A DNA stretch of 24,991 nt from an uncultured Mucilaginibacter sp. (GTDB lineage: Bacteria > Bacteroidota > Bacteroidia > Sphingobacteriales > Sphingobacteriaceae), in NCBI RefSeq assembly GCF_946481715.1, contig NZ_CAMLOV010000073.1, positions 1 through 24,991 on the forward strand. The letters run 5' to 3'. Shown in pieces: positions 1-7,810 of this stretch. Both the position numbers and the translations under genes were made by a program. The notes beneath the pieces are model-generated. The model was not told the origin of the DNA and did not search any database. It saw only the letters and a list, made by a program, of their open reading frames with translations. Every line of letters begins with the position of its first letter. The stretch's first letter is position 1.

Positions 1-57
1 ATGGGAAACCCGAAGCGGGCTAACCACTCTGTGAAGGTTCGAACCCTTCCCCAACAG
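1..57 (+). tRNA. Class II tRNA-like RNA, copy 1 (3' part only)
   Basis: Only the 3' half is in the window. A T-arm is clear: stem GAAGG (33-37), loop TTCGAAC (38-44), stem CCTTC (45-49). It is followed by a 7-nt acceptor strand CCCAACA (50-56) and a G (57) at the discriminator position. Before the T-arm there is a small hairpin, CCCG-AAG-CGGG (9-19), then TAACCACTCTG. The same order and largely the same bases recur 146 nt downstream in copy 2, so this is a tandem duplicate. The anticodon is outside the window. It could be a functional tRNA, a decayed one, or a tRNA-like RNA with another role. Confidence 0.6.
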
Positions 58-61
58 CAAG

Positions 62-78
62 CTAAACGCAAGGTTTAG
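62..78 (+). other. Short hairpin linking the two tRNA-like RNAs
   Basis: Perfect 6-bp inverted repeat CTAAAC (62-67) / GTTTAG (73-78) around a GCAAG loop, with no T-run directly after it. It sits in the 30-nt linker between the two tRNA-like units, so a role in processing a joint transcript is possible but only inferred. Confidence 0.4.
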
Positions 79-87
79 TTTATATCC

Positions 88-203
88 TGTAGGATGGTGA
101 AATTTTTGGCAGACACACCTCCTTGTCGCGGTGGCGGAGAATATGGGAAACTCTTAGCAATAAGAATAACCACTCTGTGAAGGTTCGACCCCTTCTCCTA
201 CAG
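88..203 (+). tRNA. Class II tRNA-like RNA, copy 2 (Leu-like body, apparent GTC anticodon)
   Basis: A full cloverleaf can be drawn. The acceptor is TGTAGGA (88-94) / TCCTACA (196-202), 7 of 7 paired, with discriminator G203. The D-stem is GTG (97-99) / CAC (114-116), with a Leu-type D-loop ending GGCAGA. The anticodon stem is CCTCC (118-122) / GGTGG (130-134) with one T-T mismatch, and the loop TTGTCGC puts GTC at 125-127. The T-arm is GAAGG-TTCGACC-CCTTC (179-195). The variable region of about 44 nt has a basal stem CGGAG/CTCTG (135-139/173-177) and an inner hairpin TCTTA-GCAA-TAAGA (152-165). The D-arm and the CTTG.../GGTGG anticodon arm resemble bacterial tRNA-Leu(GAG), but the anticodon, the U1-A72 pair and G73 do not fit Leu. 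No 3' CCA is encoded. It could be a divergent tRNA or a pseudo-tRNA. Confidence 0.6.
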
Positions 204-235
204 CTCTTCTCATAATTTAGGTTTATAATTGGTTA

Positions 236-271
236 GTAAAAGCCCCTGCCCATCAGGGGCTTTACTTTTTT
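236..271 (+). terminator. Rho-independent terminator of the tRNA-like unit
   Basis: The stem GCCCCTG (242-248) / CAGGGGC (254-260) with loop CCCAT is extended by flanking GTAAA/TTTAC pairing and followed by a T-run from 266. It closes the tRNA-like transcription unit. Confidence 0.85.
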
Positions 272-7725: not shown

Positions 7726-7799
7726 GGAGTGGTAGTTCAGCTGGTTAGAATGCCTGCCTGTCACGCAGGAGGTCGCGGGTTCGAGTCCCGTCCATTCCG
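7726..7799 (+). tRNA. tRNA-Asp (GTC)
   Basis: A 74-nt canonical tRNA. The acceptor is GGAGTGG / CCATTCC with one G-T pair, the D-arm is GTTC...GGTTAGAAT, and the anticodon loop CTGTCAC has GTC at 7760-7762. The T-arm is CGCGGGTTCGAGTCCCG, and the discriminator is G7799. The encoded 3' end continues CAGG, so CCA must be added by nucleotidyltransferase. Confidence 0.97.
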
Positions 7800-7810
7800 C
7801 AGGAAAATTA

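Follow-up and report, generated by a model that had tools for sequence, protein, structure and literature searches.

A conserved class II tRNA-like RNA family of Bacteroidia, often adjacent to asnC and probably a non-decoding carrier for tRNA-dependent asparagine synthesis

The window, by which we mean the whole stretch of 24,991 nucleotides analysed here from an uncultured Mucilaginibacter sp., begins with two tRNA-like units on the forward strand. Of copy A (positions 1–57) only the 3' part is present, with the variable arm from ATGGGAAAC, the T-arm, the 3' acceptor strand CCCAACA and G73 at position 57; its 5' part lies beyond the window start. Copy B (88–203) is complete, with the loop TTGTCGC, a long variable arm, an acceptor stem in which 88–94 pair with 196–202, and G73 at position 203, and it scores 112.1 bits with covariance model R2. 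Direct reading confirmed what the initial annotation had described: tandem units with T-arms 146 nt apart, the variable-arm hairpins CCCG-AAG-CGGG and TCTTA-GCAA-TAAGA, and, in the second copy, the acceptor TGTAGGA/TCCTACA with U1-A72, G73 and GUC at positions 34–36. Downstream of the last unit there is a conserved tail, CTCTTCTCATAATTTAGGTTTATAATTGGTTAGTAAA (204–241, forward strand), shared with relatives, and a terminator-like hairpin, AAAGCCCCTG-CCCAT-CAGGGGCTTT with a T run (236–271, forward strand), which was read directly and resembles a hairpin in relatives. The normal tRNA-Asp(GTC) that had been noted at 7726 was identified by ARAGORN and Rfam at 7726–7800 on the forward strand, separate from the tRNA-like units, and shows that the tRNA-like unit is dispensable for reading Asp codons.

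Scanning the genome collection with a sequence pattern retrieved 21 loci, all from Mucilaginibacter, and complete A units are found in 20 of them. Fifteen loci carry both A and B units and five carry only A; at the remaining one (L020), the contig ends inside the A unit. The A units have the acceptor TGTTGGG/CCCAACA and the B units TGTAGG[A/G]/TCCTACA. In L001–L021, a stretch GTTCTTTAA, which we take to be boxA-like, and a presumably promoter-like box, TANNTTTG, are located 10–30 nt upstream of unit A; both elements also precede many Sphingobacteriaceae units, as they do in stable-RNA operons. The tail behind the last unit is conserved among the Mucilaginibacter loci and occurs in a varied form behind most of the Sphingobacteriaceae units listed, where both AGGTTTATAATTGGTTAG and the GCCCATC loop of the terminator are kept. 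A distinct terminator loop, GTTTGTGATGGTTC or a near variant, is conserved downstream of the unit in a further group of genomes (L119, L122, L124, L142, L145 and L148). In L249 and L250 the tail and the GCCCATC loop persist without the RNA, so that the tail might function independently; a similar piece is found in L230.

The RNA belongs to a widespread family that ARAGORN and Rfam missed here. In the window, ARAGORN called the tRNA-Asp at 7726 and neither tRNA-like unit, and Rfam at its gathering score likewise reported only the tRNA-Asp, the tRNA-like units falling below the RF00005 threshold; relaxing the search of positions 1–420 to E-values up to 10 gave no tRNA match. An RF00005 search of genome G374 listed 41 tRNAs without its tRNA-like unit, and ARAGORN called no unit in the 21 Mucilaginibacter loci or in L108–L155. 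With a covariance model built from 36 units, we found full-length members in 58 of the 61 sampled genomes of the genus and matches (E up to 1e-12) in 160 of the 251 sampled genomes of the family. A second model identified members in no fewer than 66 of the 395 genomes of a class sample, counting matches of at least 105 nt and 58 bits, and a third in at least 38 of 395 genomes of a phylum sample, counting matches of at least 105 nt where the best of the genome reached at least 88 bits, by which G562 (63.5 bits) was left out. Both counts are minimum values, since the filters were stringent and only a few candidates in each genome were scored. Shorter matches, near 83 nt and 55 bits, were set aside as ordinary tRNA-Leu on the basis of ARAGORN calls for four of them, and one ordinary tRNA row was removed from alignment A3. 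An order-level search gave 179 of 250 genomes, which largely overlap the family sample and provide no separate evidence. The units range from 107 to 195 nt in total length, most of the spread being due to the variable arm, and some genomes have several copies, with seven matches in G067 and tandem triples in G540, G944 and G952. A mobile element was also considered and rejected: there was no match among plasmids or phages, nor among viral contigs when searched with one exact pattern fitting mainly the Sphingobacteriaceae form. No description of this tRNA-like RNA was found in the open-access literature searched, a scope outside which most subscription papers lie.

A cloverleaf with a giant variable arm is supported by covariation. 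When 39 units were aligned by MAFFT and a hand-drawn structure was applied, 94.5% of the cells were paired, both sides changed in 13 of the 31 pairs, and the covariation score of 0.180, compared with 0.099 in shuffled alignments, was reached by none of 500 shuffles. For 82 units aligned to the covariance model, and hence biased towards it, 97.3% were paired and 20 of the 31 pairs had changes on both sides; the score in this model-leaning alignment was 0.371 against 0.168 in shuffles and at most 0.126 in slid versions. The four anticodon-stem pairs are invariant in the 39 units, and one of the four varies in the 82. The compensatory changes in both alignments uphold the suggestion of the initial annotation that selection acts on structure, in place of decay. 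The support is comparative and not energetic, because the single-sequence folds of five units are of ordinary stability (z from -1.32 to +0.20); one of these (L004) gave no cloverleaf. The variable arm consists of a base stem, a second stem of 3 bp, a conserved internal loop in which CTAA faces GGGAAA or GGATAAA, and an end that varies, with an inner conserved stretch, GGGTTGACCAC, in many units outside Sphingobacteriaceae. Two second units within Sphingobacteriaceae (L086, 5376–5516; L088, 5180–5321) have a long arm with GGGTTGACCAC beside a short-arm unit, and one unit (L133, 3025–3156) has an enlarged D loop instead of only a large variable arm. G18 and G19 are present in 82 of 82 units and the T-loop sequence UUCGA in 81 of 82. 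The base directly 3' of the unit is C in all 82 (alignment A4), as it is in the ordinary tRNAs listed for G374, which suggests a tRNA-like 3' maturation.

Twelve bases, U1, G2, A14, A15, G18, G19, U35, C36, U48, C71, A72 and G73, are invariant in the 82 units; C38 is found in 81 and G34 in 79. A decoding anticodon loop has U33 and a purine at position 37. The tRNA-like units depart from this rule, with U in 66, G in 11 and C in 5 at position 33, so that 16 of the 82 have a base other than U, and with U in 68, G in 8 and C in 6 at position 37, where A never occurs. According to the available parts of PMC9976931, AspRS recognises G73, G34, U35, C36 and C38, bacterial AspRS also uses G1-C72, and G1-C72 together with U20a prevents amidation of Asp-tRNA-Asp; the same parts, and those of PMC4206432, attribute amidation by GatCAB to U1-A72. 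All five AspRS determinants occur together in 78 of the 82 units, always with U1-A72, which is present in all 82, whereas G1-C72 is found in none; the four columns after G19 contain no U, so there is no U20a. Fifteen further units, found by model R3 and not included in its building set, all have GUC and C38, and seven of them have A at position 33; the determinant counts carry a bias, as a model trained on units of this kind preferentially recovers units of this kind and would overlook members whose loops differ. Two diverged units in which the GUC loop is gone keep acceptor and T-arm features (L256 of G465, 1770–1882, 31.5 bits; L280 of G495, 2437–2543, 74 bits). Among the 41 ordinary tRNAs of G374, U1-A72 with G73 is found only in tRNA-Asn and GUC with C38 only in tRNA-Asp. 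Because these determinants are conserved and positions 33 and 37 are not, the RNA appears to retain the bases read by AspRS and GatCAB, and not those needed for decoding.

The RNA combines features of several known tRNAs. It shares G34, U35, C36, C38, G73 and G2-C71 with bacterial tRNA-Asp, but it has U1-A72 in place of G1-C72, a class II arm, a base other than A at position 37 and a tRNA-Leu-like body. The likeness to tRNA-Leu(GAG) proposed in the initial annotation held when the units were compared with tRNA-Leu(GAG) of relatives: the D arm, A15-U48 and the outer anticodon-stem pairs are shared with the tRNA-Leu(GAG) of the same bacteria, whereas G73 (82 of 82) instead of A73, U1-A72, GUC and a variable region of roughly 35–97 nt are not. 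Its hint at a Ser-type discriminator was not sustained, as A15-U48 (82 of 82) matches the group's tRNA-Leu and differs from the tRNA-Ser used for comparison; the conserved bases taken together indicate aspartate/asparagine, and we rejected Ser identity. Mimicry of an anti-Shine-Dalgarno sequence by CACCUCCUU, which we likened to the 16S 3' end, was also rejected; much of this stretch derives from tRNA-Leu(GAG), and other families do not conserve it. The available parts of PMC7609411 describe allo-tRNAs, reported from Clostridia, Proteobacteria and Acidobacteria, as having Ser identity and 8/4 or 9/3 stems. Like the RNA described here, allo-tRNAs in that account are non-canonical and tRNA-like, have a long variable arm and GUC as one of their more common anticodons, and can be polycistronic; the present RNA differs by 7/5 acceptor/T stems in its covariation-supported structure and by its occurrence in Bacteroidia.

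A divergently oriented ORF of AsnC type is located upstream of the unit in 61 of 88 loci, including 20 of 20 complete Mucilaginibacter loci, 13 of the 19 in L081–L100 and 28 of the 48 in L108–L155. Four of the 27 loci lacking it (the window, L084, L108 and L109) have less than 250 nt of upstream sequence, and several of the 27 are additional copies elsewhere in the genome; by analogy, the asnC gene of the window would lie beyond its left end. Five neighbour proteins examined all exceed the PF01037 cut-off, and the NCBIfam AsnC equivalog is their best NCBIfam model with 160–178 bits, under its cut-off of 227, the other models reaching at most 83 bits. In the class sample, an AsnC orthologue (E up to 1e-60) is present in 64 of the 66 RNA-positive genomes compared with 25 of the 329 others. 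Within the 66, it lies at most 600 nt from the unit in 44, elsewhere in 20 and is absent in 2, one of which is G495, the genome with the diverged unit L280. Of the 25 other genomes with AsnC, two (G562 and G678) proved to carry the RNA. In one genome of the genus sample (G013), asnS, asnC and two units are found within 2.7 kb.

Where the RNA is not nearby, asnC has another partner in some genomes. Among 21 such loci, from 21 of the 25 genomes, asparagine synthase B faces asnC in four and an archaeal-type asparagine synthetase in two, the nearest solved structures of the latter including archaeal asparagine synthetase A; among the other four of the 25, AsnB is matched at 157 nt from asnC in G689, and an archaeal-type match adjoins asnC in G553. 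The rest of the asnC loci without the RNA have different partners or none evident. Upstream of asnC in L258 (G501), another tRNA-like stretch, GGTTCGAGTCC, with TTTGA/TCAAA flanks, lies where the RNA would be expected; this genome has AsnB and lacks GatB. In E. coli K-12, asnC faces asnA at a distance of about 150 nt. The arrangement here is similar in that asnC is divergent from a gene presumed to serve asparagine supply, with gaps of 78–269 nt, and differs in that the partner is an RNA.

We surveyed asparagine enzymes in 61 chosen genomes, comprising 41 RNA-positive genomes (40 of the 66 in the class sample and G562) and 20 of 23 asnC-positive RNA-negative genomes (G084, G553 and G568 omitted), with G465, which has AsnB and the diverged unit L256, counted as RNA-negative. 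TIGR01536 (asparagine synthase, glutamine-hydrolysing) proved too broad as a marker of asparagine synthetase, being above its cut-off in 57 of the 61 genomes, 38 of the 41 RNA-positive ones among them, and below it only in G340, G659 and G630 (RNA-positive) and G591 (RNA-negative). For this reason the narrower types, AsnA and E. coli-type AsnB and archaeal-type AsnA, were also searched, the queries for the latter two being taken from RNA-negative genomes (E up to 1e-50). E. coli-type AsnB or archaeal-type AsnA occurs in none of the 41 RNA-positive genomes compared with 11 of the 20 RNA-negative ones (Fisher p 4e-7, ignoring kinship), and AsnA in 2 (G670 and G522) compared with 3. Any of the three synthetases is found in 2 of 41 against 12 of 20 (Fisher p 5e-6, ignoring kinship); thus 39 of the 41 lack all three, including G340, G659 and G630, as do 8 of the 20. 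GatB is present in 41 of 41 RNA-positive compared with 14 of 20 RNA-negative genomes (Fisher p 7e-4, ignoring kinship). A bacterial-type AspRS was found in G374 and an AsnRS in G013, one genome having been examined for each.

From the family, its structure and determinants, the link with asnC and the enzyme distribution, we consider it probable that this new class II tRNA-like RNA family of Bacteroidia is a dedicated non-decoding carrier of tRNA-dependent asparagine synthesis. We are evenly divided on the fuller proposal that the RNA is a reusable cofactor for the conversion of aspartate into free asparagine by AspRS and GatCAB, under the control of AsnC, replacing synthetase genes in much of Bacteroidia. 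In such a cycle, AsnC, the divergent neighbour in many genomes, would set transcription according to the asparagine level, and the RNA would be matured like a tRNA and gain CCA. AspRS would load aspartate through G73, G34, U35, C36 and C38, and GatCAB would accept the Asp-RNA, which has U1-A72 and lacks G1-C72 and U20a, and convert aspartate into asparagine. The size of the variable arm, together with unsuitable bases at positions 33 and 37, would bar the RNA from the ribosome, keeping asparagine out of Asp codons, and the asparagine would be released from the RNA and then used by AsnRS. A GUC-bearing RNA loaded with asparagine would otherwise place it at Asp codons, which would explain the drift at positions 33 and 37 as well as the large arm. 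Several points count against such a carrier: the TIGR01536 proteins in 38 of the 41 RNA-positive genomes could make asparagine, two of the 41 have AsnA, 8 of the 20 RNA-negative genomes likewise lack all three synthetases, the ordinary tRNA-Asn of G374 also has U1-A72, and the G1-C72 pair used by bacterial AspRS, as given in the available text of PMC9976931, is absent. Two proteins of the TIGR01536 type in G374 lie among genes that, judged by eye, resemble those for glycosyltransferases and polysaccharide export.

The chief alternative is that the RNA regulates the same enzymes, serving asparagine and aspartate metabolism by binding and tuning AspRS or GatCAB as a decoy or sensor. AsnC would set the amount of the RNA, and asparagine itself would be formed on ordinary tRNA-Asn through GatCAB and a non-discriminating AspRS. 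We regard this as unlikely, though it draws on the same determinants and the same asnC neighbour, and both the U1-A72 of tRNA-Asn in G374 and the conserved tail and terminator, which hint at roles beyond a carrier, speak for it; regulation alone leaves unexplained the mutual exclusion of the RNA and synthetase genes and their shared place beside asnC. Transfer RNAs have non-ribosomal uses in other bacteria. That the RNA might carry aspartate or asparagine for another such use, in the cell wall, lipids or peptide modification, would fit a non-decoding loop combined with aminoacylation determinants, but seems distinctly improbable to us, as it does not predict the exclusion of synthetases and, besides asnC, no shared biosynthetic gene was noticed beside the RNA in the loci read. 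Still more doubtful is a tRNA that decodes Asp codons, either ordinary or mis-sense (inserting Asp, Ser or Leu): the GUC in at least 78 of the 82 units and the intact elbow bases would suit it, whereas the absence of A37, which the group's tRNA-Asp has, the bases at position 33, including the A of the seven further units, and the ordinary tRNA-Asp in both the window and G374 argue against it. A recent tRNA-Leu pseudogene pair, suggested by the tRNA-Leu(GAG)-like body and by the failure of tRNA finders, is rejected with hardly any doubt because the units, which show compensatory changes, are conserved across much of the class, and they usually have a promoter-like box and a terminator. Of the three options given in the initial annotation, the non-decoding RNA therefore stands, the mis-sense tRNA is disfavoured by bases 33 and 37, and the pseudogene is abandoned.

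Asparagine synthesis on tRNA-Asn has already been predicted for bacteria of this kind; the accessible parts of PMC4206432 name 18 genera, Bacteroidetes included, with AsnRS, GlnRS and GatCAB and without a synthetase. The RNA described here resembles that tRNA-dependent route of AspRS and GatCAB, as presented in those parts, in U1-A72, G73 and the Asp determinants, as well as in the presence of GatB in all 41 RNA-positive genomes and the scarcity of classical synthetases. It differs in that the putative carrier is a separate RNA with an Asp anticodon, a huge variable arm, a non-decoding loop and a link to asnC. A non-discriminating AspRS would also permit the published route on tRNA-Asn, the tRNA-Asn of G374 likewise having U1-A72. 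If the RNA is indeed the carrier, it would be a conserved tRNA with the task of making an amino acid instead of reading codons, and the carrier would differ from the tRNA-Asn predicted for such genomes in the accessible parts of PMC4206432. It would also answer where asparagine comes from in bacteria that have AsnRS and GatCAB and lack a classical asparagine synthetase.
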